Source of the DNA: a virus
DNA length: 39,078 nt
Reading direction: 5' to 3' (one strand)
IMG/VR virus record: IMGVR_UViG_3300020160_003682
Location: 1 to 39,078 of that record
A model generated the notes under the pieces. It was not told the origin of the DNA. It worked only from the letters and a program-made list of their open reading frames with translations, and did not search any database. Below, piece after piece: positions 1,857-17,180 of this stretch. The position numbers were made by a program, and so were the translations under genes. Position 1 is the first letter of the stretch. Every line of letters starts with the position of its first letter.

Positions 1857-2747
1857 TTATAATTTTCTAAGAATTAGATTTTTAATCTTTTTGTCTTCTT
1901 TTAACCAGATACATGCGGTTGATGTTTTTATGTCGAAATATTCGCATACTTCTTTAAGTCCTGAGAATTCTTTGATTATATTTTCATTTTCGTCTATCAG
2001 AATGGATCGTATTCTTCTTTTGATATTTTTTTCTGTTTCTCTATATTTTCCTCTTGATTTTCCCTTTCTATTCTCGTTGTATTTTTTAAAGCTTTCTGAA
2101 TTTTTCAATCCATCCGATAGGTTTTTCCTATATTCTTCCGAATTCAGTCTGTCTCTATGCGGTTTTGATTTTTTCAGAGATTCAGACATATTTTTTCTAT
2201 ATTCATTGAATTCTTCTTCTGTTAATGATGTCCACCATCGTTTTATCGACTCTGATATATTATTTCGAAATTCTTCGGTGTAGATCGATTTATGCCTTTC
2301 TGAATTTTTAACAGATTTCGACATTGATTCGCGATATTCTACTGATTTTCTTTCTTCGAATATTTTTTCCATTTTTTCCATGAATTCCTGATCATGAAGG
2401 TATTTATATCTCATCGTTTTTGAAATGGCATCTTTTATATAATCATCTTTGATGGAATATAATCCGGACGTCATGTTGCATAAGTTTTGTATTCCGAATC
2501 TTTCGATTATCTCCTGTTCTTTTTCATATGCAGTCCTTTCATCATCTGTCTCAAAAACTATCTCATATTTGACATCATCATATTCTTTCAATATATTTTT
2601 GATTTTTCTGAAGAGAAAAATATTATTGTTTGATATCTTGTCCTGTTTTGCCAATTGACTATGCCTTTTCATTCTGTTTCCTTTTCCTTTGCCGACATAG
2701 AAGACCTTATTGTTTTTTGGCGATTTTAAAAGATAGACATAGTACAT
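1857..2747 (-). CDS. GIY-YIG homing endonuclease with NUMOD3-like repeats
   Basis: 296 residues. The GIY-YIG domain is at the N-terminus: YYVYLLKSP and VFYVGKGKGNRMKRH give the two tyrosine-containing strands and the catalytic Arg, and the Glu occurs in the AYEKEQEII region. Residues ~120-230 hold several short repeats of the type SEEYRKNLSDGLKNSE, matching NUMOD3 DNA-binding segments. The C-terminus (FSGLKEVCEYFDIKTSTACI) looks like a NUMOD1 helix-turn-helix. This is the T4 Seg/I-TevI type of site-specific nuclease. It is AT-rich relative to neighbours and is a free-standing gene inserted between two head-protein candidates. It ends one base after the stop of the convergent plus-strand gene, with no terminator between. 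Confidence 0.93.
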   Translation of the reverse strand: MYYVYLLKSPKNNKVFYVGKGKGNRMKRHSQLAKQDKISNNNIFLFRKIKNILKEYDDVKYEIVFETDDERTAYEKEQEIIERFGIQNLCNMTSGLYSIKDDYIKDAISKTMRYKYLHDQEFMEKMEKIFEERKSVEYRESMSKSVKNSERHKSIYTEEFRNNISESIKRWWTSLTEEEFNEYRKNMSESLKKSKPHRDRLNSEEYRKNLSDGLKNSESFKKYNENRKGKSRGKYRETEKNIKRRIRSILIDENENIIKEFSGLKEVCEYFDIKTSTACIWLKEDKKIKNLILRKL

Positions 2748-3205: not shown

Positions 3206-3236
3206 AAAAGCCACTCATTTGAGTGGCTTTTTTTAT
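3206..3236. terminator. Bidirectional intrinsic terminator
   Basis: AAGCCACTC-ATTT-GAGTGGCTT with A- and T-runs on either side. It separates the convergent gene pair ending at 3202 and 3233. Confidence 0.9.
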
Positions 3237-4303
3237 GCGTTGTATTTGAAGCTGTGTCCTTCTTCGATGTTCAGCAGCGTCTGGTATATCAGCTTGATGA
3301 TGTTCTTCACGTCGTCTCTGTGTACCGTCTCGCATGTCGTGTGCATGTACTTCAGAGGAAGCGAGATCAATACAGAAGGAACTCCTCCGTTTGAATAGGC
3401 GAACGCGTCTGTATCTGTTCCTGTGGATGTAGAGCTGGCAGCCAGCTGAACGGGAATATTCTTCTTCGCCGCTGTATCCAATACGAGCTTCCTCAGCTTG
3501 TTGTGCACCGCAGGCGCTCTCGTTATGACTCCGCCCTGTCCTGCTACGTGCTCTCCTTCCTTGCTCGCGTTGTAGCATGGAGAAGAAGTCTCGTGGCACA
3601 CGTCTGTTATGATTGCCACGTTTGGCTTTATTGTCTGCGTGACCATCTGCGCTCCTCTGAGGCCGATTTCTTCTTGGACAGAGTTGACGATGTATAGCTT
3701 GAAAGGAAGCTCTTTGCCTTTTTCCTTCAGCTTTCTCGCCACTTCGGCGATCATGAATCCTCCGATCCTGTTGTCCAATGCCCTTCCGGTGTAGTAGTCC
3801 TTACCGAGCTTCATGAACTGGTCTTTGAAAGTGACGACCGTCCCTACGTTGATTCCCATCTCTATGACTTCGTCTTTGCTTGCGGCGCCGACATCGATGA
3901 ATATAGAGTCCAGGTCTGATTCTTTCTTGCGGTATGAAATATGTATCGCCGGATGGCCGAAGATGCCGTCTACTGGCCCGTCTTCTCCCCATAGGGTCAC
4001 TCTCATCGAAGGAGCGATCGTCGCGTCAGATCCTCCGTTCCTGATTACTTTTATATATCCCTTCGAGTCGATGTGGTTGACGAACCACGAAATCTCGTCG
4101 CAATGGGATTCCAAAACCACTTTGTAGTCAGAGTCCATATTGCCCATTATGCCATATGCAGTGCCATAGTTATCTAATTCAATTTTGTCTACATATTTGG
4201 AAATGTGATCCATCCAAATCTTTTGAGTTCCAAGTTGATATTCAAAACCAACTGGGCCATTTGAATTTAGATATGTTTCTAAAAATTCCTCGTTTATTTT
4301 CAT
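3233..4303 (-). CDS. M42-family metallo-aminopeptidase
   Basis: 356 residues, full length for M42 (glutamyl aminopeptidase/endoglucanase M/TET) enzymes. These are dinuclear metal peptidases that remove N-terminal residues from peptides, usually as dodecamers in the cytoplasm. The metal and catalytic positions are visible: H67 and D69 in LESHCDEISWFV, D177 in GRALDNRIGG, E211/E212 in VQEEIGLRGA, D234 in ITDVCHE, and the C-terminal His in KYMHTTCE. The enzyme therefore looks active. Such a gene is not normal in tailed phages; roles in recycling peptides for synthesis or in trimming a virion or host protein are guesses. The first ~55 codons (4140-4303) are AT-richer than the rest and abut the homing-endonuclease insertion. 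The start has no Shine-Dalgarno sequence. Confidence 0.93.
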   Translation of the reverse strand: MKINEEFLETYLNSNGPVGFEYQLGTQKIWMDHISKYVDKIELDNYGTAYGIMGNMDSDYKVVLESHCDEISWFVNHIDSKGYIKVIRNGGSDATIAPSMRVTLWGEDGPVDGIFGHPAIHISYRKKESDLDSIFIDVGAASKDEVIEMGINVGTVVTFKDQFMKLGKDYYTGRALDNRIGGFMIAEVARKLKEKGKELPFKLYIVNSVQEEIGLRGAQMVTQTIKPNVAIITDVCHETSSPCYNASKEGEHVAGQGGVITRAPAVHNKLRKLVLDTAAKKNIPVQLAASSTSTGTDTDAFAYSNGGVPSVLISLPLKYMHTTCETVHRDDVKNIIKLIYQTLLNIEEGHSFKYNA

Positions 4304-4406: not shown

Positions 4407-4553
4407 ATGAAAGCCAAAGAAGTGATGAAAAAATACAATATAACTAGAAATACTCTAAGTAACTGGGTAAAGAGAGGTTGGATAGAAGTTAAGAAAATGC
4501 CGTCGGGTAGATACATTTATCTTGAAAAAAATATAGATGGCAGTGAGTGTTAA
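4407..4553 (+). CDS. 48-residue helix-turn-helix DNA-binding protein
   Basis: Small ORF beginning MKAKEVMKKYNITRNTLSNW and continuing VKRGWIEVKKMPSGRYIYLE. This is the compact excisionase/MerR-type helix-turn-helix: a recognition helix after 'YNITRNTLSNWVKRGWI' and a beta-wing after it. It overlaps the next gene by 17 bases in another frame, so the two are almost certainly co-transcribed and co-translated. It could supply target recognition or self-regulation for the homing endonuclease; this is inference. The gene is AT-rich like its partner. Confidence 0.65.
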   Translation: MKAKEVMKKYNITRNTLSNWVKRGWIEVKKMPSGRYIYLEKNIDGSEC

Positions 4554-5415
4554 ATTTACAAAAGATGATTTTATTCGCGAGTCCATAAAAATACATGGCG
4601 ATAGATATGACTATTCGCTGGTGAAATATGTCAAATCTTCCGAAAAGGTAGTCATTGTATGCAGGAAACATGGTAGCTTTAATCAAAGAGCCGGCAATCA
4701 TTTGAGAGGAAGAGGATGCTATGATTGCAAAAAGACAAAAAAATATGATTCTGAAAAATTCATAAATCTATCAAAAGATATACATGGCGATAAGTATTCT
4801 TATCATAAAGTCATTTATGAAGGATCGCATAAAGATGTCACAATATCTTGCAAAATACATGGTGATTTTAATCAGTCCCCGACTAACCATTTGAGAGGAA
4901 AGGGATGTAGTGAATGTCATATAGAATCGACCAGGATGGTTTTTGAAGATTTCATAAATAAATGCAATTCGGTTCATAATTTTAAATATGATTATGATTT
5001 ATTAGTATACAAAAACATGAGAGCTGACATTTTAATAAAATGCAGGGAACATGGCAATTTTAAACAAAGAGCCAAAAATCATTTAGATGGACAAGGATGT
5101 CCTAAATGTGGCGATAGTTTTGGAATTAAAGAAAACAAATGGTTGGATTTATATAGTATAAAAGAACGACAAATTAGAATAGGTAGATATATTGTTGATG
5201 GTTATGATCCTGATACAAAAACAGTCTATGAATTCAATGGCGATTTTTGGCACGGAAACCCCGAAATCTTTAAAAGAGATGATTTTAATAGTGTTCTGAA
5301 CATAAAATTCGGAGATTTATATGATAAGACTATTAGAAAAGAGATAGAATTGAAGAAGATGGGCTATGAAGTTATCTCGATTTGGGAAAATGATTTCAAT
5401 AAACTATGTTTATAA
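4537..5415 (+). CDS. Vsr-like (EDxHD) homing endonuclease with three zinc-finger-like repeats
   Basis: 292 residues. Three repeats of ~65 residues start at about residues 9, 72 and 135 (FIRESIKIHGDRYDYSLV, FINLSKDIHGDKYSYHKV, FINKCNSVHNFKYDYDLL). Each ends with CxxHG...NHL.G.GC..C, a likely Zn-binding DUF723-type DNA-recognition unit. The C-terminal ~95 residues (RIGRYIVDGYDPDTKTVYEF then NGDFWHGNP and GYEVISIWENDF) carry the D...E..GD..H signature of the Vsr-fold/EDxHD nucleases such as I-Bth0305I. It would nick or cut a specific site for homing. AT-rich codon use marks it as an import. Confidence 0.88.
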   Translation: MAVSVKFTKDDFIRESIKIHGDRYDYSLVKYVKSSEKVVIVCRKHGSFNQRAGNHLRGRGCYDCKKTKKYDSEKFINLSKDIHGDKYSYHKVIYEGSHKDVTISCKIHGDFNQSPTNHLRGKGCSECHIESTRMVFEDFINKCNSVHNFKYDYDLLVYKNMRADILIKCREHGNFKQRAKNHLDGQGCPKCGDSFGIKENKWLDLYSIKERQIRIGRYIVDGYDPDTKTVYEFNGDFWHGNPEIFKRDDFNSVLNIKFGDLYDKTIRKEIELKKMGYEVISIWENDFNKLCL

Positions 5416-8316: not shown

Positions 8317-8730
8317 ATGAAGATATACAAGATATGCACCGACATGACACAGGAAAGAGACGAAGAGCTCAAATCGCTTCTTACTAGAGAGGAAGAGAAG
8401 CAGATCTTCAGATACTTCGAGGATGGAAACATCACCTATGATATAGTAGGAGACGACGGGCTCGTGAAGGTCTATTTTCTATGCGCAGAAGAAGTGCTGG
8501 AGTATGTAGTGGCTCTTTTCTATAAGTACGAAGTCAAGTTCTCGATCGAGGACATAACGAACGACTTCCTTATTGGCCGAGTAAGCATCGACGACAATGA
8601 CTTTCAAAAATATCTGCTAGAGAATCTCGACATAGACACGATACTGGACAAGATAAACGAATTCGGAATAGAATCTCTCACCAAGACGGACATAGAAATA
8701 TTGGAATCAAAAAAAAGAGATACTGCATAG
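8317..8730 (+). CDS. Hypothetical protein with C-terminal ILDKI module
   Basis: 137 residues. The first ~100 residues are an alpha/beta domain of unknown family (MKIYKICTDMTQERDEELKS, then VYFLCAEEVLEYVVALFYKY). Residues ~106-130 carry DTILDKINEFGIESLTKTDI-EIL, a short helical module shared with two other proteins in this window and, from memory, with the C-termini of Bacteroidota proteins including rhomboid-family ones. The stop codon lies in the loop of the following terminator, so the end of translation and of transcription nearly coincide. It is a single-gene plus-strand unit among minus-strand genes. Confidence 0.75.
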   Translation: MKIYKICTDMTQERDEELKSLLTREEEKQIFRYFEDGNITYDIVGDDGLVKVYFLCAEEVLEYVVALFYKYEVKFSIEDITNDFLIGRVSIDDNDFQKYLLENLDIDTILDKINEFGIESLTKTDIEILESKKRDTA

Positions 8731-8745
8731 TATCTCTTTTTTTTA
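8710..8745. terminator. Bidirectional terminator with the stop codon in its loop
   Basis: AAAAAAGAGATACT-GCAT-AGTATCTCTTTTTTTT. The TAG of the plus-strand gene (8728-8730) is part of the hairpin, and the minus-strand gene ends at 8747. Confidence 0.88.
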
Positions 8746-8746
8746 T

Positions 8747-9163
8747 TTAGAATTTTCTTCCGCCTGGTCCGCCTTCAGAATCTCCTACAGAAGTGATGTC
8801 TTGCCATTTGTCGCCTTCTTTCTTGACGGTCTTGCATCTGTCGAAGTGTATTTTTGCGAATTCTTCTTCTTTGACGGTCTTGGCGTCCGCGTCTTTGTAT
8901 AGATAGTCGTATACGCTAGGTGCGAATTTGGAACCGTATGCCAAGCTCTTTTTCTCGTCGAAGCCGAAGCTTTCAGCCCAGTCGATGAATTTCTTTTTTA
9001 AAGATTCTTTGGAGAGCTTTCCTGCCTGAAGCGATGCCCAGTTAGCATTGATATCTTTTGACCACTCACCATCTTTAGGACCGAAAAGACCCTTTATGAA
9101 TTCTTCGTTCATAGAGTCGTTTTCTGCGTATGAAAACGATTCGAATGTTTTTAAATGTTTCAT
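8747..9163 (-). CDS. CTS-bearing small protein, putative head-packaged protein
   Basis: 138 residues. The N-terminus MKHLKTFESFSYAENDSMNE closely resembles a T4-type capsid-targeting sequence, with M-N-E as a possible cleavage point. The mature part is soluble and mixed-charge (WASLQAGKLSKESLKKKFID, then SLAYGSKFAPSVYDYLYKD) and ends in a Gly-rich basic tail. It shares MKHLK.F with the gene at 31023. An AATATATA box and A-rich leader precede it. The molecular role is unknown. Confidence 0.7.
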   Translation of the reverse strand: MKHLKTFESFSYAENDSMNEEFIKGLFGPKDGEWSKDINANWASLQAGKLSKESLKKKFIDWAESFGFDEKKSLAYGSKFAPSVYDYLYKDADAKTVKEEEFAKIHFDRCKTVKKEGDKWQDITSVGDSEGGPGGRKF

Positions 9164-9190
9164 GTTTGGTTTTTATTTTTGTATTTTAGG

Positions 9191-9200
9191 TATATATTAA
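9191..9200 (-). promoter_or_regulatory. TTAATATATA promoter box
   Basis: Minus-strand TTAATATATA, 27 nt before the ATG at 9163; the leader is A-rich (AAAATACAAAAATAAAAACC). Confidence 0.55.
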
Positions 9201-9229
9201 TTCTATAAATCGTTTTTTTTTCAAAATAT

Positions 9230-10129
9230 CTATAGCTTCTTCTCGAAGAGATAGAGGTCGTATAGTGTGTTTCCCTTGACGTTCTTTATGCTTTTCAGCA
9301 CCTGCCCAGTTATGGAATCGAGAACTTTGAATACTCCTATCTGCTTTCCCTTTTCGTCCTGCACCTTGACGGTGTTTCCTGGTTGGCCGAGCGCGCCCAA
9401 TATCGCCATGTATTTGTTTCCATATATGCTCTTCAAGAATGATATCCTGACCGCCGTCGTGTCTTTGATGTTGTTTATGTAGGCGTTTTCCATCGCCTTT
9501 CTGAGGTCTAGCTGGCTGGCCGTGTCTTTAACCACTATGGTCGCGAACTTTCCTGGCTCTCCTACCGTTACTTCTTCTCTGTCTTGTATCTTGTTCTGGT
9601 TTACTAGGCTGGTCTGGTTTCTCCTGATTTCGTTGAAGTCTGCCCTTGCTATGATTCCGCCTCTCATCCCTTTGTCGTACATGTTGTATCCAGAAGGAGG
9701 AAGCCTGTAGAATGATCCAGTGAAAGTCATAGAGAGTATCCTGTCTGTCCTGAACATCCTCCATATCTTGTTTATATGCCTCTTCTGCGAAACGGACCAT
9801 CCGTTGAGGTGCCATCCTCTCAAAAGCGGCTTTCCTTTGCCGGACCTTCCCAAGACCATAGGATAAATCACGCGTTCGTGGCCGGCAAAATGAGAGTCTT
9901 CTTCTCCTTTGTAGTTGATGAGGAATATCATTCCGTACTTTATCGCCTTTATCATCGTCTGCTCGCTGTATTTGATAGGCTCGTTGATAGGTATGTTGGC
10001 GATGTCCTTGACGTTCTTCAGAGAGAACCTAGGTATGAACTCGTTGTCTTCTATGAGCTCGTATCGCTCTTTGACTACGAATTCGACAGGCTTCGTGTTG
10101 TAGTATGCTCTCGTCTGCTTTAGATTCAT
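9230..10129 (-). CDS. WYL-like domain protein
   Basis: 299 residues from ATG 10129 (MNLKQTRAYYNTKPVEFVVK). An upstream in-frame ATG at 10177 is rejected because the promoter box lies between. Residues ~60-150 show IFLINYKGEEDSHFAGHERV, IYPMVLGRSGKGKPLLRGWH and IWRMFRTDRILSM. This follows the WYL order: a Y-strand, 'ERVIYP..L', an 'LRGWHL' strand and a closing 'R-x-DRI' strand. WYL domains are Sm-like ligand-sensing regulators that often bind nucleic acids. No helix-turn-helix is seen, so it is not a typical WYL transcription factor. The C-terminal half is beta-rich (VKVQDEKGKQIGVFKVLDS) and unassigned. Confidence 0.6.
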   Translation of the reverse strand: MNLKQTRAYYNTKPVEFVVKERYELIEDNEFIPRFSLKNVKDIANIPINEPIKYSEQTMIKAIKYGMIFLINYKGEEDSHFAGHERVIYPMVLGRSGKGKPLLRGWHLNGWSVSQKRHINKIWRMFRTDRILSMTFTGSFYRLPPSGYNMYDKGMRGGIIARADFNEIRRNQTSLVNQNKIQDREEVTVGEPGKFATIVVKDTASQLDLRKAMENAYINNIKDTTAVRISFLKSIYGNKYMAILGALGQPGNTVKVQDEKGKQIGVFKVLDSITGQVLKSIKNVKGNTLYDLYLFEKKL

Positions 10130-10130
10130 A

Positions 10131-10144
10131 AGGTATATATTAAT
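10131..10144 (-). promoter_or_regulatory. AATTAATATATACC promoter box, 4 nt before ATG
   Basis: On the minus strand the box runs AATTAATATATACCTT into ATG at 10129, with four bases between TATATA and ATG. Confidence 0.5.
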
Positions 10145-10204
10145 TGCCCGTTCTCTAGAAATGCCGGAATGGCCCATTATATGAAAAAAAGAGCTTTGTT
10201 TTTT

Positions 10205-10214
10205 TAATATATAT
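10205..10214 (+). promoter_or_regulatory. TAATATATAT promoter box
   Basis: TTTTTTTAATATATATCG with its TATATAT 20 nt before ATG 10235, followed by an A-rich leader. Confidence 0.55.
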
Positions 10215-10234
10215 CGAAAAACAAAGCATTCTAT

Positions 10235-10981
10235 ATGTCTATTAGCAGCAGAGAAGACGCCAACAAATACTATCAGCTCGTGAATGAGCTTGTCGACGAA
10301 TACATGTCTAAAGGAAAGATCAGGCCGTCCAGCCTGAAGAGATATCTACAGCCGGGCAGCGAGAGGTTCAAGAAGTTTCTCCAGAGGAACAAGCTCAACG
10401 AGATAACCGGAATAGACAGGGTATTGGAAGACGTCATCGAGGACAGGGCAAGCATGGAATCGGACGGCGTTCTGACTTTCGAGAGCTTCAAGATATTCGA
10501 AAGCGACGAGTTCAGGGCTTCGAGTCTGAAGCAGTGCATCTACAGAGGGCTGGAAAAGGCAGACGTAGAGATGGAGAAGGCGCTGGCCGACTATTTCGAC
10601 ACGAATCTAGGGTCGATAGACGTGATAGATTCAGACAAGCACGTATTCTATATAGAAGACCAGAACGCAGAGGCGATATGCCTGACGCTGGAAGAGATGA
10701 GGACCATAGAGGACAACATCGTAGAATATCTATATTCTGAGCTGAAGAAGAAAGAGATAGAGCTTATAGACAAAATGACCGGAGACCTTACCATAAACAT
10801 AGGAGATTTCATAGCGACGAACGACGCCGTATTCGACGCCTTCGACGCCGCGATCAGGAAGAAGCTAGACGAAGGGATATTGGCAAAGCTGATAGAGAAC
10901 CTGATTGCTGGAGACTATCCAGGAATGGCGGAGATGGCCAATATAAGGAACTACTATATCTGGTATTGGGAAAAACAGTGA
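10235..10981 (+). CDS. Hypothetical helical protein, 248 residues
   Basis: Almost entirely helical and acidic. It contains VLTFESFKIFESDEFRASSL at about residues 79-98, which is similar in wording to the F-E-S-F capsid-targeting-like peptides but internal. It may mark a junction between two domains, or be coincidence. The N-terminal ~70 residues (YYQLVNELVDEYMSKGKIRP, SSLKRYLQPGSERFKKFLQR) look like an independent unit. It is a stand-alone plus-strand gene with its own promoter box, followed 60 nt later by a terminator. No family recognised. Confidence 0.7.
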   Translation: MSISSREDANKYYQLVNELVDEYMSKGKIRPSSLKRYLQPGSERFKKFLQRNKLNEITGIDRVLEDVIEDRASMESDGVLTFESFKIFESDEFRASSLKQCIYRGLEKADVEMEKALADYFDTNLGSIDVIDSDKHVFYIEDQNAEAICLTLEEMRTIEDNIVEYLYSELKKKEIELIDKMTGDLTINIGDFIATNDAVFDAFDAAIRKKLDEGILAKLIENLIAGDYPGMAEMANIRNYYIWYWEKQ

Positions 10982-11043
10982 AAAACATGCAACATCATGA
11001 TATACAAATAGCATATATCACGGAATTGATATTGTCAGAAACG

Positions 11044-11073
11044 AAAAAAGAGAGCCTTAGCTCTCTTTTTCTT
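11044..11073. terminator. Bidirectional intrinsic terminator
   Basis: AAAAAGAGAGC-CTTA-GCTCTCTTTTT between the plus-strand gene ending 10981 and the minus-strand gene ending 11072. Confidence 0.88.
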
Positions 11074-11773
11074 ATTCCAATATCGTCTTCAGCTTGGCTT
11101 CTCTGATAAGCCCTTTCGTCGCCGAATTCTTCAGATTGCTTTCTATCGCTTCGAATATCTTCTTTCTAGAAAAGAATCCTGCGTATGCCGTGTCTAGCCC
11201 GTCGTTTTGCGCAAGAACTCTTATGAAGAGGTTTGGCTGTATCCTCACTACGAATTTGTCCAGTATTATTTCTAGTTTCGATCCTTCTTTCGCCTTTTCG
11301 ATGCATTCGAATATGAATGCCTGTTCCATTTCTGGTCCGTAGTTGAACGGAGAAGCCTCGAATCCTATCGCCTTCAGGAATCCTATCGCTATCTTCACTT
11401 TTTCGTACCTGCATTTCGATTTCGTCTCGGTGTCGTAGTAGGAGAATCTCGAAGGCATCTCTTCGAATTCTTCTTCCGTGCCTATGTGGTAGGCGCCTTC
11501 TTCGAGCAGCGAGTCTAGCTTGATGTCTCTCTTCGCGGCTTCGTCGTATGCTCTCTTCTTCTTTATGTACCCTGTAAGCTTTGTGTCGAACAGGAAGTGC
11601 GTCTTTCCTGTTTCTTCTGCCAATCTCTCGCATTCGTCTATCAGATACGATTCTATCTCGCTTCTCTCGTATGAGAAGACGTTTTCTTCTACTGTCGACT
11701 CTTCGAGGATCGTGTCTTCTTCTATCTCTATCGCAGTTGTTCCATCTGGAAGCGTCACTTGCTTTATGCTCAT
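11072..11773 (-). CDS. Hypothetical phage protein, 233 residues
   Basis: The start is MSIKQVTLPDGTTAIEIEED at 11773, because that ATG overlaps the upstream stop as ATGA, a classic translational-coupling junction; a longer reading would overlap the upstream gene by 67 nt. The protein is acidic and alpha/beta, with an N-terminal strand-rich leader and helical middle (SEIESYLIDECERLAEETGK). It has one lysine-rich stretch (GYIKKKRAYDEAAKRD) and ends in a charged helix. No membrane segment or known motif. It is the last gene of a four-gene minus-strand operon (13827 to 11072). Confidence 0.72.
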   Translation of the reverse strand: MSIKQVTLPDGTTAIEIEEDTILEESTVEENVFSYERSEIESYLIDECERLAEETGKTHFLFDTKLTGYIKKKRAYDEAAKRDIKLDSLLEEGAYHIGTEEEFEEMPSRFSYYDTETKSKCRYEKVKIAIGFLKAIGFEASPFNYGPEMEQAFIFECIEKAKEGSKLEIILDKFVVRIQPNLFIRVLAQNDGLDTAYAGFFSRKKIFEAIESNLKNSATKGLIREAKLKTILE

Positions 11774-11994
11774 GCTATCGCGTAGTTTTTTTCGTGGTCT
11801 AGCTCTTTTTTCAAGAAGAGCGTTAGAACATGGCATTTTTCGTATTCTTCCGATTCTTCGAAGAACGCTATCATTTTTTCTATGAATTCTCTGCTATATG
11901 GCTTCAGCGCCACATCGTAGGGCTTTCCTGACGATATTCTTTCGTAGTTGCTGTTCATGAGGTATGAATAGCTTCTCAATACTAGCTTTTCCAT
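11770..11994 (-). CDS. Small hypothetical protein, 74 residues
   Basis: MEKLVLRSYSYLMNSNYERI then PYDVALKPYSREFIEKMIAF and EEYEKCHVLTLFLKKELDHE: a helical protein with one Cys. Its ATG overlaps the stop of the upstream gene (TAATG) and its own stop overlaps the next start (ATGA). It therefore sits in a tightly coupled operon, probably expressed at a fixed ratio with both neighbours. Function unknown. Confidence 0.72.
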   Translation of the reverse strand: MEKLVLRSYSYLMNSNYERISSGKPYDVALKPYSREFIEKMIAFFEESEEYEKCHVLTLFLKKELDHEKNYAIA

Positions 11995-12626
11995 TATTTC
12001 TGGCTTTGGCTGTTAAGGAATTCTATTTCTTCTTTCGTAAGCTTCTTTATGCCTACTTTGTTTATCTTGTCCAATATCGAATCTACGTCTAGCATGGATT
12101 CGTTGTTGCTTATTATCTTCTCTACGTCCGATTCTTCTTTGATCGATTCTCCTATGTTCGTCGATTCTCCTAGGTTCATCGCCTTCAGCTCTTCTTCGAA
12201 CTTTCTCACTTGAGATTCTAGCTCTTCTCTAGATATGGTGACCCCAAGAACCTGCACGACATCCTTTATCTGCTTTCCATATTCTAGCATCATAGCTTCT
12301 TCTAGCTTTTTGGCCGTGTCTCCTTTCATTCCTTCGGTCGAATGCAGGCATTTTCCTTCTTTGAATATGCAGAATACTTTTTTGTCCATAAGGTATACTA
12401 TGTTTACTTTTCCATAGTCTTTCAGCTTTAGGTCCACCATAGAGGTCATGTTCAGCCTGCTTACGAATACGGACTTTCCTTCTCTTATGCACTCGATCGT
12501 TTCGGCGAACTGCTTTTCTCTGTCTTTTCTGATTGACGCGGCCTTGGCTATTTCTGATATCTTCCTTAGTATCACCGCAGACGCGACTCCTGCCGCGAAC
12601 AGCAGATATAGCTTTAAATCTTCCAT
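11994..12626 (-). CDS. Membrane-anchored hypothetical protein with C-terminal ILDKI module
   Basis: 210 residues. Residues ~5-22 (KLYLLFAAGVASAVILRK) form an N-terminal membrane anchor with a positive flank after it, so most of the chain is probably cytoplasmic. The middle (EGKSVFVSRLNMTSMVDLKL, VNIVYLMDKKVFCIFKEGK) is a beta-rich domain. A helical linker with two GES motifs leads to the C-terminal DSILDKINKVGIKKLTKEEI-EFL module, also found in the genes at 8317 and 17180. The start lies 1 nt from the stop of the nucleotidyltransferase. Role unknown; a membrane tether displaying the module is one reading. Confidence 0.72.
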   Translation of the reverse strand: MEDLKLYLLFAAGVASAVILRKISEIAKAASIRKDREKQFAETIECIREGKSVFVSRLNMTSMVDLKLKDYGKVNIVYLMDKKVFCIFKEGKCLHSTEGMKGDTAKKLEEAMMLEYGKQIKDVVQVLGVTISREELESQVRKFEEELKAMNLGESTNIGESIKEESDVEKIISNNESMLDVDSILDKINKVGIKKLTKEEIEFLNSQSQK

Positions 12627-12627
12627 A

Positions 12628-13827
12628 TTACAGATTATATATAATTTTTCTTATTTTGATCAGCAGATTGTCTACGAACTTCTCGTCTACTTTGTCTGGG
12701 AGCGCCGAATCCGCGAACAGCCTGTCGATTTCCTCTATTTCCGCCTCTACTTCGGATATGAGAGTATCTAGGTCTATCGCTCCTCTCCTGATAGAGATGA
12801 GGTACTCCGTGTCCTGCCTTCTCACGTTGATTCCCTTTCCCTCCGCGATTTCTCTGGCCATCGACATAAGCCTTTTCGAGTGCATCATGTTCTTTCCGTC
12901 TATCTTCTGCCCGTGCGTCTTCACCTCCACCCATCTGGCCTCGTTCTTCTTCTCTAGCCATTCCTGGTATTCCTTGTACTCCTTGCAGTGCTGCGAGTAT
13001 CCGTCTTTGTTGTAGTAGATGTTGCAGATTGGCTTCTCGCCTTTTGGAATAGAAGATAATCTAAGTGCATTTGACTCCGCGACATTTGCACCTTCACCAG
13101 TCTTTACAAGACCTTTATAACCAAAACCCATTGGGTAACCCTTTTCTTTAAGTTCTTGTTTTAATTTATTTCGATACTCTTCACTATATACTTCAGAGTG
13201 ACATAATGCTGCACTTTCATCAAAATATACCGCATATACATCCCTAGCATTTGGAACATTTACAACTCCACAAAACTTCTCATCATAGATATAACGTTCA
13301 ATACTATCTCCATTCCATTTTTTCCACGGAATCGATCTCTCTCCGTCGATCACATAGACGAAGTCGAGCACGTCCTTTCGAGTCACTTTGTCTTTCTCCC
13401 AGTTCTGCTTCTTGTTCTGTCCCTTCGCCTTCTGTATCTGCATCTTCCCGTATCCGCCGAAAGACTTTGAGCATATCTTCGTTATGAACTTATCTCTGTT
13501 CTGAAGGACTTCGTCGAATGCCGGATGCTTGTACACGACGCAGTCTTCTGGAGTGTTTAGCAGTTCCAGCACGGTTGGGTTGTTTGATGCCAATAGGTTC
13601 AGGAACCTCTTTATCTCGTAGATGACGATGTCGTTCTTGTCGTCGTTTATCTGCTCTTTGTATCCGTTGCCGAGTATGTCGTCAATTGATTGTATGAAAA
13701 CGCCGGCGTAGTCGGTGTCCGACGTCTCTACGCTTGTTCCGTATGCGCGCGAGCCCCTGATCACGAGCAGCAGCGGCTTGGCCCCTGTCGATTTATCCTC
13801 TATCAGCTTCTCTAGTTCTTCTCTCAT
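12628..13827 (-). CDS. Predicted nucleotidyltransferase (PF10127/YcgL-like, pol-beta superfamily)
   Basis: 399 residues from ATG 13827 (MREELEKLIEDKSTGAKPLL). This start is chosen because the promoter box and a leader with AAAGG lie directly upstream. The pol-beta core is clear: LLLVIRGSRAYGTSVETSDT-DYAGVFI, with the G-S-R-A-Y-G helix turn and the D-x-D metal pair (SDTDYAG), then the third strand NDIVIYEIKRFLNLL. These enzymes transfer nucleotides; the substrate is unknown for the phage versions. The C-terminal ~70 residues (RRGAIDLDTLISEVEAEIEE) are a typical helical tail. A ~280-bp patch (about 13045-13330) has AT-rich codon choice unlike both flanks, yet the frame is intact. Confidence 0.88.
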   Translation of the reverse strand: MREELEKLIEDKSTGAKPLLLVIRGSRAYGTSVETSDTDYAGVFIQSIDDILGNGYKEQINDDKNDIVIYEIKRFLNLLASNNPTVLELLNTPEDCVVYKHPAFDEVLQNRDKFITKICSKSFGGYGKMQIQKAKGQNKKQNWEKDKVTRKDVLDFVYVIDGERSIPWKKWNGDSIERYIYDEKFCGVVNVPNARDVYAVYFDESAALCHSEVYSEEYRNKLKQELKEKGYPMGFGYKGLVKTGEGANVAESNALRLSSIPKGEKPICNIYYNKDGYSQHCKEYKEYQEWLEKKNEARWVEVKTHGQKIDGKNMMHSKRLMSMAREIAEGKGINVRRQDTEYLISIRRGAIDLDTLISEVEAEIEEIDRLFADSALPDKVDEKFVDNLLIKIRKIIYNL

Positions 13828-13848
13828 TTGATTCGTGCCTTTATGCAA

Positions 13849-13858
13849 AGATATATAT
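13849..13858 (-). promoter_or_regulatory. AATATATATC promoter box, also TAnnTTTG
   Basis: Minus-strand AATATATATCTTTG, 22 nt before ATG 13827. It contains both the phage box and TATCTTTG, a match to the Bacteroidota -7 consensus. Confidence 0.5.
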
Positions 13859-13890
13859 TTTGGGAAATATTGCGAAATGGCGTACGCGGA

Positions 13891-13902
13891 TTTTAATATA
13901 TA
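13891..13902 (+). promoter_or_regulatory. TTTTAATATATA promoter box
   Basis: A clear example of the box, 21 nt before ATG 13924, with an A-rich leader. Confidence 0.6.
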
Positions 13903-13923
13903 ACCAAAACTCAAAAGAAAGAC

Positions 13924-15072
13924 ATGCCTACACAGAGCTACAATACGGGTAACTCCATATACGATTCCTATGCATCCGGAAATCCCAACGTGGTCGCGGA
14001 CTACAGGTACATAACTCTGCTTCTCGACAACATACCAGACAACACAGCGAACCTGATCGACGCGAAAGACGTTCGAGACGCCATATGGACTCTCTGGAAC
14101 AGAGTGGAAGACGTAGTAATAGGCCTTTCTTCTTCTGGAATAAGCATCGATGGATCCACTTCTTCCGGCACTTTTTCCGCGGACCTTTCCTATAACAGGA
14201 CTAGGCCTTCTTCCGCCCCTGCAGTAGGAGGAGTTCCTACAGGATCGACCTTTTCTGGAACAATACAGGACGTGCTCGATAGGATATTCTATCCTTATAC
14301 GGCGCCTTCCTGCTCTCTTTCTGGCGGAGGCTCTAGGCTCTTCAACGGAAATACGTCGGTGAGCCTCAACTTCACCGTCAACAAGGCCGAGAAGCCGATA
14401 GCCTATATGGGGATAACCAAGCTTGACGGAACCACCAATCTTTCAGTTCCGGCATCTATCAGCCAGAACAACACCAATCCTGCCAGCTTCGCCAGCGGCG
14501 CTTCTACGGTTCCGCCTACGCTGGTGACATACGCAACGCATAGCACGCCTCCTGGTGGCCTTTCTGTCACCAACACCTATACGCTGACCGTCAGCGACGG
14601 AACTTCGAACATAACTTCAAGCACTTCTGTTACATGGATGAATTACTTCTACTACGGAACTCTCGATCTTTCGTCTCTTCCTTCCAATTCGAACCCAGAC
14701 CTTTCTGTGAGGCCGGATGGATCCAACGCTGCCGCGGTCGCTTCTTCTATAGTTCAGATAGGATCATTCGTGACGGACGCGGTCATAAAGGCCAATGCCG
14801 GAACCAATAACCGACCTCAGGCACAGAAGCAGCTTTCTACTTCTAGATCTCTTTCGCTGAGCAATTTCGCGGCAGGAGACAAATATCTGTTCTTCGCCTG
14901 GCCTACTGGATTTGGAAATCCAACATTCACGGTGAACAACTTGCAGAACACCGCCTTCACCAAAGTCAGGAGCAACAGCGCGTTCGCGAACGAAAACGGA
15001 TGGAGCGGAACCAACTATGACGTCTGGATAAGCAATACTCCATACGGAACCGCTACCGTGGTAGTGAGCTAA
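13924..15072 (+). CDS. Virion adhesin/decoration-type protein with beta-sandwich repeats
   Basis: 382 residues, rich in Ser, Thr, Gly and Asn. The N-terminus (residues ~35-65: LIDAKDVRDAIWTLWNRVED) is a helical connector like those in phage tail-fibre or neck-attached proteins. The rest is beta-rich with Ig-like strand patterns (TVNKAEKPIAYMGITKLDG, TNTYTLTVSDGTSNITSSTS). It has no Cys and no signal peptide. It shares the start MPTQ and transcription direction with the next gene, 25 nt downstream, so both probably sit on the tail or head surface. Receptor binding is inference. Confidence 0.65.
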   Translation: MPTQSYNTGNSIYDSYASGNPNVVADYRYITLLLDNIPDNTANLIDAKDVRDAIWTLWNRVEDVVIGLSSSGISIDGSTSSGTFSADLSYNRTRPSSAPAVGGVPTGSTFSGTIQDVLDRIFYPYTAPSCSLSGGGSRLFNGNTSVSLNFTVNKAEKPIAYMGITKLDGTTNLSVPASISQNNTNPASFASGASTVPPTLVTYATHSTPPGGLSVTNTYTLTVSDGTSNITSSTSVTWMNYFYYGTLDLSSLPSNSNPDLSVRPDGSNAAAVASSIVQIGSFVTDAVIKANAGTNNRPQAQKQLSTSRSLSLSNFAAGDKYLFFAWPTGFGNPTFTVNNLQNTAFTKVRSNSAFANENGWSGTNYDVWISNTPYGTATVVVS

Positions 15073-15096
15073 AATGAAAAAAGACAAAGAAAGAAT

Positions 15097-16437
15097 ATGC
15101 CAACACAGAATATAGGTACGCTTGTAGGCGCCGCGATAAGGCCGCTCAACGACACGATGCCGATCGCATCTGCCTTCGCCTTCGAGATAAACGGAGGGCA
15201 TCACCAAGTCGCGACATTGGCCGACAGGAACGCCATCATGGTTCAGAGAAGGCAATGGGGAATGCTATGCACGGTATACAACGATCCTTTGGTGGACAAC
15301 AACGCTACATATCAGCTCAAATATGGACATTTCAGCAATGTGTCTTCCGACAATCAGAACTGGGTTGTCTTTTCCGGATCCGGAGGCGCCGGCGGATCTT
15401 CCAAAGGCTGGATAGATCCTGTCATTTCCATAAGGACTTCGGCTCCTACTACACCTGCGGACAAAGACAGATATCTGGTTGGAAAGAGCGCCACCGAATC
15501 GCTCTCTGGTGATTTCTCACTTCAGATAAACTCTGGATATTCCGGAACTCTGGTAGGAGGATATGTGGCGGAATACAGCTCTTCCATATCTTCTTGGATA
15601 ACGACGCTTCCTTTCGATGGAATGACCATTCGCGTCAATGACGAGGACAATTCCTTCTATAGATACGAAGGATCCTACTCTACTGGAAAGTGGATAAAGG
15701 AGAGGCTGAATCAGGTCAGGTATCTTTCCGCGTCAGGTTCCGATAGGATAAACTATTCCGTGCCCGCAGACGACTATCTCTCGTATTCTTCGGAAGTCGT
15801 GCATATGGTGCAGTTCGCCACTTCCAATTCCGGAACTTCTGCGACTTTGAACATAAACGGGCTTGGATCTAAAAGCATAAGAGTGCAGACCAGCTCGGGA
15901 CTGGTCGATCTGGCGCCGCTCGATATAAACTCGACGAACGTCTATTCTTTGATATACGACGGGACTCAGTTCAGGATATCTTTGCCGCAGTCTGGATCTC
16001 AGGGAGGATTCGACCTGAAATATAGAATATTGTCTAATGAGAGGATATATGTTCCTCCTTATTCTGAATACCTTCTACATGGAGATCTGGAAGTCAATGG
16101 AACGATGGATATAAGCAATACTGGAAAGGTGGTGCTTATAAACGGCGGGCTGAATGTCAATGGCGGAACGGTGTCTAATTCTGGAAATGTCTCTTTCGTC
16201 AAGTTTCCTATGATGTCGGAAGGCAGCGCTGGATATGTTCCTAAATGGGAATCGTCTTCTGTCATATCGGCTACTTCTTCAATTCGCGATGTTGGAGATA
16301 AAGTATCTATCGATCGCGTTTTGAGGCTTGTTCCTAGCACGCAGCCTTCTTCTGCGCAGGCAGGCGATATGTATTTCGATTCGTCCACTAACAAGTTCAG
16401 AGGATTCGACGGAACTTCCTGGAACGATTTCTGGTAG
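15097..16437 (+). CDS. Tail fibre / receptor-binding-like protein
   Basis: 446 residues. Domains seen in order: an N-terminal attachment region (LADRNAIMVQRRQWGMLCTV); a 'D-K-D-R-Y-L-V' and 'DEDNSFYRYEGS' segment typical of modular phage fibres; residues ~225-300, a TLNINGLGSKSIRVQ...VYSLIYDGTQFRI fibre repeat; a beta-helix-like stretch (HGDLEVNGTMDISNTGKVVL); and a C-terminal cap AGDMYFDSSTNKFRGFDGTS common at fibre tips. It probably contacts the cell surface. Whether it trimerises or needs a chaperone cannot be told. Backbone-type codon use; terminator directly downstream. Confidence 0.78.
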   Translation: MPTQNIGTLVGAAIRPLNDTMPIASAFAFEINGGHHQVATLADRNAIMVQRRQWGMLCTVYNDPLVDNNATYQLKYGHFSNVSSDNQNWVVFSGSGGAGGSSKGWIDPVISIRTSAPTTPADKDRYLVGKSATESLSGDFSLQINSGYSGTLVGGYVAEYSSSISSWITTLPFDGMTIRVNDEDNSFYRYEGSYSTGKWIKERLNQVRYLSASGSDRINYSVPADDYLSYSSEVVHMVQFATSNSGTSATLNINGLGSKSIRVQTSSGLVDLAPLDINSTNVYSLIYDGTQFRISLPQSGSQGGFDLKYRILSNERIYVPPYSEYLLHGDLEVNGTMDISNTGKVVLINGGLNVNGGTVSNSGNVSFVKFPMMSEGSAGYVPKWESSSVISATSSIRDVGDKVSIDRVLRLVPSTQPSSAQAGDMYFDSSTNKFRGFDGTSWNDFW

Positions 16438-16466
16438 AAAAAGCACTCGATCGAGTGCTTTTTTAG
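16436..16466. terminator. Bidirectional intrinsic terminator
   Basis: AAAAAGCACTCGA-TCGAGTGCTTTTTT, a near-perfect palindrome between the tail-fibre gene (stop 16437) and the minus-strand gene (stop 16463). Confidence 0.9.
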
Positions 16467-16726
16467 TTTTCCAGTATGATCAGTATGTTTTCGATGGAAA
16501 ATCCGTCTAGAGGCTTTCCTCCTTTCTTTAGATATTCCTGATATATGTTGTTGTAGTCGTCTATGGTGTAGAACTTCGAGTCCAGGTCGCAGTATATCAC
16601 GTTCGTGTCATGAGACGTCACCGTCTTGTTCTGAGTCCTCGTCTCGCCATATGCTGGTCCGATTGGCCCGACCAGCTCGGTTCCGCTCACCTCTTCTTTT
16701 ATGAAGTCTTCGAATTTTTTAATCAT
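16463..16726 (-). CDS. CTS-bearing small protein, 87 residues
   Basis: The N-terminus MIKKFEDFIKEEVSGTELVG is one of the closest matches here to the T4 capsid-targeting peptide, with I-K-E as the (I/L)-x-E cleavage site near residue 11. The remainder is soluble (THD/ETRTQNKTVTSHDTNVIY-type text, then FYTIDDYNNIYQEYLKKGGK). A second in-frame ATG lies immediately upstream at 16729. The start lies within the last codons of the upstream gene, so the two are coupled. It is probably packaged in the head; function unknown. Confidence 0.68.
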   Translation of the reverse strand: MIKKFEDFIKEEVSGTELVGPIGPAYGETRTQNKTVTSHDTNVIYCDLDSKFYTIDDYNNIYQEYLKKGGKPLDGFSIENILIILEN

Positions 16727-17180
16727 CATCGCTTCCTGCTTCTATTTTTTCGTAGTATTCGTCTTGTTCCTGAAGCGAATATTCGTCTTTTTTCCCGTTG
16801 TATATTATGTTGTACAGAAATCTGTCTTCTAATGAATGGCTTTCGCCGCCTTTCATGAAAACTACGCATTCGTCTTCTTCGAATACGTTTTCGACTCTGG
16901 TTATCTTCAGTCCGAATTTACCGTCTTTGTCATGAAGGTCGCATATTACTTTCCTTCCTTGTTCCAGCAAGTCTTCTATTTTAGAGAACGCCGAGTTTTT
17001 CGAAAGATACATGAAGTCTTTCATGCTTTCTTCTCTGGTTTCCTGGTATAGGTTCAGGAAGCTTATTTCCTTTTTGGTAAGATTCTTTCCCGAAGAAATC
17101 TTGTCTAGTATCCTGTTCAGCTCTATCTCTTTGATAGATTCTCCGAGCAGATAGTATTTTATGAGCTTCTTTATCTTCAT
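16719..17180 (-). CDS. Hypothetical protein with N-terminal ILDKI module
   Basis: 153 residues from ATG 17180 (MKIKKLIKYYLLGESIKEIE). This start is chosen because GAGGAG, one of the few Shine-Dalgarno-like sequences in the window, lies about 10 nt upstream; two earlier in-frame ATGs fall in or before the promoter box. Residues ~24-42 are ILDKISSGKNLTKKEISFL, the module that is C-terminal in the genes at 8317 and 12626. The second half is a beta-rich domain (KVICDLHDKDGKFGLKITRV) with an acidic tail. Family unknown. Confidence 0.68.
   Translation of the reverse strand: MKIKKLIKYYLLGESIKEIELNRILDKISSGKNLTKKEISFLNLYQETREESMKDFMYLSKNSAFSKIEDLLEQGRKVICDLHDKDGKFGLKITRVENVFEEDECVVFMKGGESHSLEDRFLYNIIYNGKKDEYSLQEQDEYYEKIEAGSDDD

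Follow-up and report, generated by a model that had tools for sequence, protein, structure and literature searches.

Why would three phage proteins with otherwise unrelated bodies carry the same short helical segment, and what would that segment do for them? The window, the whole stretch of DNA analyzed here, is the 39,078-base IMG/VR virus record IMGVR_UViG_3300020160_003682 (positions 1–39,078), and it contains T4-like myovirus genes. The tail sheath encoded there is 64.9% identical to that of LR745206 (634 kb) and 61.2% identical to that of LR756502 (642 kb), in both cases over 100% of the length. More distant tail-sheath relatives occur in genomes of 735 and 636 kb, in Lak phages of Prevotella, and in Tenacibaculum and Flavobacterium phages. 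Judged on the tail sheath, the source phage is a close relative of the 634–642 kb Mahaphages. The largest huge-phage genomes have been assigned to the Mahaphage clade, and five Mahaphage genomes of >634 kb were all predicted to replicate in Bacteroidetes (Al-Shayeb et al. 2020, PMC7162821). The window also encodes an M42 glutamyl aminopeptidase (3233–4303, minus strand; Pfam E 1.8e-74), and two ORFs look by eye like GIY-YIG-like and repeat-type homing endonucleases (1857–2747, minus strand, and 4537–5415, plus strand).

The original prediction placed one string at the C-terminus of a first protein (A), one at the C-terminus of a membrane-anchored protein (B), and one in the N-terminal part of a third (C), and all three were found there (Table 1). 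The segment common to A, B, and C has roughly 26 residues in two helices. The curated cut-off of Pfam DUF6576 (PF20216), 27.3 bits, is exceeded by A and B; copy C had no Pfam match. A local module profile was built only from other genomes and searched against the window's 651 six-frame ORFs, of which it picked exactly three: B (37.4 bits, E 4e-11), A (33.1 bits, E 9e-10), and C (13.2 bits, E 0.0015). In a shuffle control (n = 200), best scores were 4.3 bits at the median, 8.3 bits at the 95th percentile, and 14.9 bits at most. By these sequence scores, copies A and B are beyond doubt genuine members of the module family. Taken alone, copy C is marginal and not decisive, because the best shuffle just exceeds its score.

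Table 1. Module-bearing proteins, module copies, and the gene paired with protein B in the window
Feature	Position	Strand	Basis
Protein A, 137 aa, body of unknown fold, C-terminal module	8317..8730	+	ORF; Pfam DUF6576 29.2 bits, residues 104–130
Module copy A (IDTILDKINEFGIESLTKTDIEIL)	8629..8709	+	Pfam DUF6576, local profile
Protein B, 210 aa, hydrophobic helix at the N-terminus (membrane-anchor-like), then a beta-rich body, a flexible linker, and the module at the C-terminus	11994..12626	-	ORF; AlphaFold
Module copy B (DVDSILDKINKVGIKKLTKEEIEFLN)	12012..12083	-	Pfam DUF6576 30.8 bits; local profile E 4e-11
RlaP-type nucleotidyltransferase, directly upstream of B, ends overlapping	12628..13827	-	Pfam PF10127 7.8e-18
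Protein C, 153 aa from ATG 17180, module in N-terminal part	16719..17180	-	ORF; alignment n = 10
Module copy C, a divergent form whose loop lacks two residues (ELNRILDKISSGKNLTKKEISFLN)	17049..17123	-	Local profile, hhalign

Copy C was accepted as a divergent relative of the module, outside Pfam DUF6576 membership, because of two further sequence comparisons. The C family (n = 10) matched the module profile in hhalign with 95.7–97.2% probability and a clean two-residue loop deletion, and protein C used as a query also matched 61-residue stand-alone modules of other phages (E 0.001–0.005). Phage proteins of 61–63 aa with little beyond the module were seen at four loci (L051, L052, L054, and L055). 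The open frame of protein C runs on to 17219, and the start at M8 (ATG 17180) is invariant in the 10-member alignment. The bodies of A, B, and C belong to three separate families. Together with the local profile and the C-family alignment, this bears out the claim of one helical module on three otherwise unrelated phage proteins. PHROGs gave no match for A or B and no convincing one for C or for other carriers, NCBIfam gave chance-level matches only, and an identity search of IMG/VR with B found no match. A PDB sequence search returned no real match, with EF-hand proteins at chance level (E 0.64 and 2). Membership in the EF-hand family was rejected on the loop, S/N-x-x-G-x-x-S-L-T-x-E-E, in which positions 1, 3, and 5 do not supply acidic ligands for calcium.

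The AlphaFold model of B (31 sequences, mean pLDDT 81.6) has a long N-terminal helix (residues 2–48) followed by five strands, a linker with pLDDT below 50 (153–166), and two module helices (181–191 and 198–209; module pLDDT about 75–80). The model of C is poor overall (mean pLDDT 49), and the module is its best-predicted part, with helices at 23–36 and 43–56 (block pLDDT 62–79). In these models the module is a helical hairpin, at moderate confidence in B and lower confidence in C, and has the two helices of DUF6576; structure prediction, proposed earlier as a way of detecting differing folds, gave the same hairpin for both proteins. A PDB fold search with the B model returned nothing at E ≤ 0.001. 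Its sole strong viral fold match (BFVD, E 1.2e-7) was A0A8D9FSJ9 of an uncultured marine phage. That protein is already named "DUF6576 domain-containing protein" in UniProt, as one isolated annotation without description of a module spanning many families.

Conservation differs between module and body in two of the three families. Invariant columns make up 11 of 27 in the module of the A family and 9 of 110 in its body (Fisher P 1.3e-4), and in the B family (33 members) they number 5 of 24 and 9 of 186 (P 0.013); the difference is weak in the C family (P 0.076). Orthologs of all three proteins occur in Mahaphage LR756502, and the module is kept in each, as it is in A orthologs in IMG/VR contigs. 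In most of 45 fetched loci, a B-family ORF lies directly downstream of the RlaP-type nucleotidyltransferase, and this RNA-repair enzyme and membrane-anchored B could form a functional unit. The pairing would also suit a nucleic-acid-binding hairpin, as formerly proposed for SHOCT, for which the two-helix shape is the only other likeness. However, the modules are acidic, with a mean net charge of −3.7 in viruses and −1.7 in bacteria, positively charged ones make up only 3% and 9%, respectively, and the bacterial carriers are membrane proteases. We regard nucleic-acid binding as highly improbable.

The viral record set comprised the window, 35 relatives, and three Mahaphages (n = 39), of which 35 have the module above cut-off, with no more than seven matches each. 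With the Pfam model at E ≤ 0.05, LR745206 has seven copies and LR756502 has six. A pattern scan of IMG/VR found 111 stretches; viral pattern copies are mostly C-terminal (98 of 112), and the remainder lie near the N-terminus (14 of 112). When the module was removed and the bodies were merged by profile-profile comparison, the viral carriers fell into about 30 separate families with unrelated bodies, including the three of A, B, and C. A cautious count is 12–15 well-supported families, since singletons may still merge. A Pfam scan of ten representative viral carriers found no second family above cut-off except for a rhomboid. This rhomboid, with a DUF6576 tail, is encoded on a 158 kb IMG/VR contig of a Mahaphage relative (L305, G347; sheath 45–49% identical) and shares up to 38% identity with rhomboids of Bacteroidota. 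A search of about 50,700 phage records gave matches at E ≤ 0.1 only in huge-phage genomes of the window's group. Other jumbo contigs with a distant or undetected sheath have one or two copies, so the module is not restricted to a single lineage. No copy was found in the Lak phages of Prevotella, in Tenacibaculum pT24 and PTm1, or in Flavobacterium MaF61, and the idea that the tag is necessary for infecting Bacteroidota was rejected on this account.

Usually nothing folded follows the module, which lies 7–15 residues before the C-terminus, and the conserved residues of the module look structural. Both features would fit a stability element, a self-folding cap that orders tails or shields them from proteases without a specific partner. 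Such a role seems decidedly unlikely to us: the module also sits behind N-terminal leaders in many families and is internal in C, and each genome has few tagged proteins, in a pattern that is lineage-restricted and not proteome-wide. A C-terminal degron or cap is likewise unlikely given the N-terminal and internal copies.

Some viral copies sit directly behind N-terminal leaders. In several families these leaders (MKHLMRYEGY, MRHLKRFNES, MVKRYKQFINEG, and LAGIITESKYKQLLED) are followed by the module, and we take them to resemble the leaders of T4 internal proteins. Moreover, an AGxITE leader directly precedes the module in 9 of the 11 ORFs that have it. The module might then be a virion or prohead targeting signal, like the T4 capsid targeting sequence, but most carriers have a C-terminal module and no such leader, an MKHLK-type leader occurs without the module in 90 of 98 ORFs (three of the 90 in the window), and the module is universal on cellular proteases. 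This makes targeting by the module itself quite improbable in our judgment. The T4 capsid targeting sequence is a short conserved segment in otherwise diverse internal proteins (PMC3012670). It is an N-terminal leader peptide, whereas DUF6576 forms a folded unit, sits mostly at the C-terminus, and also occurs in bacteria; assignment to T4-type leaders was rejected on its C-terminal place in A, B, and the great majority of viral pattern copies. Several window proteins have MKHLKTFESF-like leaders, at 2834 (plus strand), 9163 (minus), 16729 (minus), and about 31020 (plus), and related loci have 98 such ORFs. The four leaders (MKNIMNFEKF, MKHLKTFESF, MIKKFEDFI, and MKHLKKFNEGF) presumably resemble those of T4 internal proteins and are possibly a head-targeting signal of these phages.

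In bacteria, 197 of 198 Bacteroidota genomes had DUF6576, almost always as a single copy, which agrees with the predicted enrichment in the host phylum. The corresponding counts were 42 of 49 for Verrucomicrobiota and 37 of 40 for Planctomycetota, and among 14 control genomes Bacteroides ihuae alone was above cut-off. An unbiased DNA pattern gave 120 matches in genome contigs, all within 25 residues of the C-terminus, and the complete carriers among them are proteins of 228–367 aa. Rhomboids account for 46 of the 55 bacterial carriers scanned and M50 site-2 proteases for eight; the remaining one is a single-TM protein, 81 residues long, that has one hydrophobic stretch. In the rhomboids, the linker to the module has a median of 57 residues and is rich in K, S, and R. 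Rhomboid and M50 proteases have unrelated folds and a common task, cutting inside membranes, and the C-terminal tail would be cytosolic under the general rhomboid topology. On these carrier assignments, the module marks intramembrane proteases rather than Bacteroidota as such; the marked proteases have two unrelated folds and bear it on the C-terminal tail. The original prediction had likened the module to the C-termini of Bacteroidota proteins such as rhomboids; the rhomboid part held, and the reading as a Bacteroidota mark did not, with the module about as common in Verrucomicrobiota and Planctomycetota and found on M50 proteases too. Small bacterial frames of 84–108 aa with DUF6576 at 69–79 bits were seen in L352 (G063) and also in G140 and G058. 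The only one of these that was scanned (L352, 81 aa) has a hydrophobic stretch and is otherwise almost module alone.

At two Planctomycetota loci (L338 and L343), two neighboring M50 genes, or an M50 and a rhomboid gene, both end in the module. Such neighbors would fit modules that bind each other, gathering tagged phage proteins together and with the host's tagged intramembrane protease. Self-association is frequent for short amphipathic hairpins, each phage genome has many tagged proteins, and the Mahaphage relative described above encodes its own tagged rhomboid. Against this homotypic association, nearly all Bacteroidota genomes have a single copy, so that an uninfected cell offers only self-pairing, and the comparable SHOCT module did not oligomerize in a test (PMC3581485); we consider it unlikely. 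Among the bacterial loci L079–L198, 63 of 112 Bacteroidota-type loci have another rhomboid-like ORF close to the tagged one, typically without the module.

All 73 viral modules scored highest against a cross-validated viral profile and none against a host profile, with mean scores of 51.1 bits (viral), 44.5 bits (Bacteroidota), and 42.5 bits (PVC). After G, viruses and PVC bacteria have I or M, and Bacteroidota have Y. By profile preference, the phage copies are a subfamily of their own. The suggestion that the phage had captured the tag from its host is therefore not supported as a recent event: preference for the viral profile and I or M after G point to a phage form that is old or of other origin, not to one copied recently from the tail that the host now has. 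The rhomboid of the Mahaphage relative indicates that tagged protease genes are able to move.

We infer, with an even chance of being right, that the module is a portable docking unit that would bring its carrier to one common, probably host, partner. The sequences show the hairpin on about 30 families with unrelated bodies in Mahaphages and some other jumbo phages, usually at the extreme C-terminus and sometimes right behind an N-terminal leader, and in FCB and PVC bacteria on the C-terminal tail of rhomboid and M50 site-2 proteases. The most likely partner would be a host protein located in the cytosol or at the membrane face, because bacteria without these phages also bear the module. Giant phages might thereby use the host's socket to position many of their own proteins, membrane-anchored B included. 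Docking is suggested by one profile on unrelated bodies with several copies per genome, by a module whose conservation exceeds that of the body in A and B, and by its retention in the LR756502 orthologs of A, B, and C. The low-confidence linker in B and the long linker of bacterial rhomboids are consistent with a tethered unit, and near-universal presence in the predicted host phylum is in line with docking there. The strongest hint of a common partner is that two unrelated intramembrane proteases bear one tail.

Three observations count against docking. The absence of the module from Lak, pT24, PTm1, and MaF61 means that it serves no general need of phages in Bacteroidota hosts. The most strongly conserved positions (helix caps, G, L, and T-x-x-E) can be explained by the fold alone, and many carriers are without annotated function, so a common destination is not readable from annotation. 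In a bolder version, which we hold to be somewhat unlikely, giant phages would copy the recruitment tail of host rhomboid and site-2 proteases and put it, as an address label, on dozens of phage proteins throughout the genome, to reach or compete for the host partner. If docking is true, isolated modules of very different carriers should bind one partner, and that partner would reveal what recruits or regulates these proteases, together with an addressing system on many giant-phage proteins.

The phage module shares with PF20216, described as the C-terminal domain of rhomboid proteases, its consensus (D-x-ILDKI-x3-G-x2-SLT-x-EE-x2-FL) and tail position. The phage carriers differ in their non-protease, unrelated bodies and in the shorter loop of copy C; the rhomboid and M50 site-2 proteases of FCB and PVC bacteria are catalytic membrane proteins, whereas A, B, and C have no protease domain. 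SHOCT (PF09851) is a short two-helix terminal module of unknown function on many unrelated proteins (PMC3581485). Like the DUF6576 module, it is a promiscuous short two-helix unit, but it is far broader in hosts and carriers. Membership in SHOCT was rejected, with no matches in the window and none at module sites. The Mahaphages LR756502 and LR745206 have one SHOCT domain each, in a frame of 340–375 aa away from the DUF6576 sites; the positions of the two domains are W01:299055 and W02:274847.

DUF6576 itself is already catalogued in Pfam, and its name has been given to one phage protein. No paper mentioning DUF6576 was found in the literature searched, which covered few subscription papers, and its occurrence on some 30 giant-phage families and in two protease clans seems to be undescribed so far. 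The domain is near-universal in three bacterial phyla, on two unrelated kinds of intramembrane protease. For megaphages of unknown host, such as Mar_Mega_1, the module is a weak host hint.
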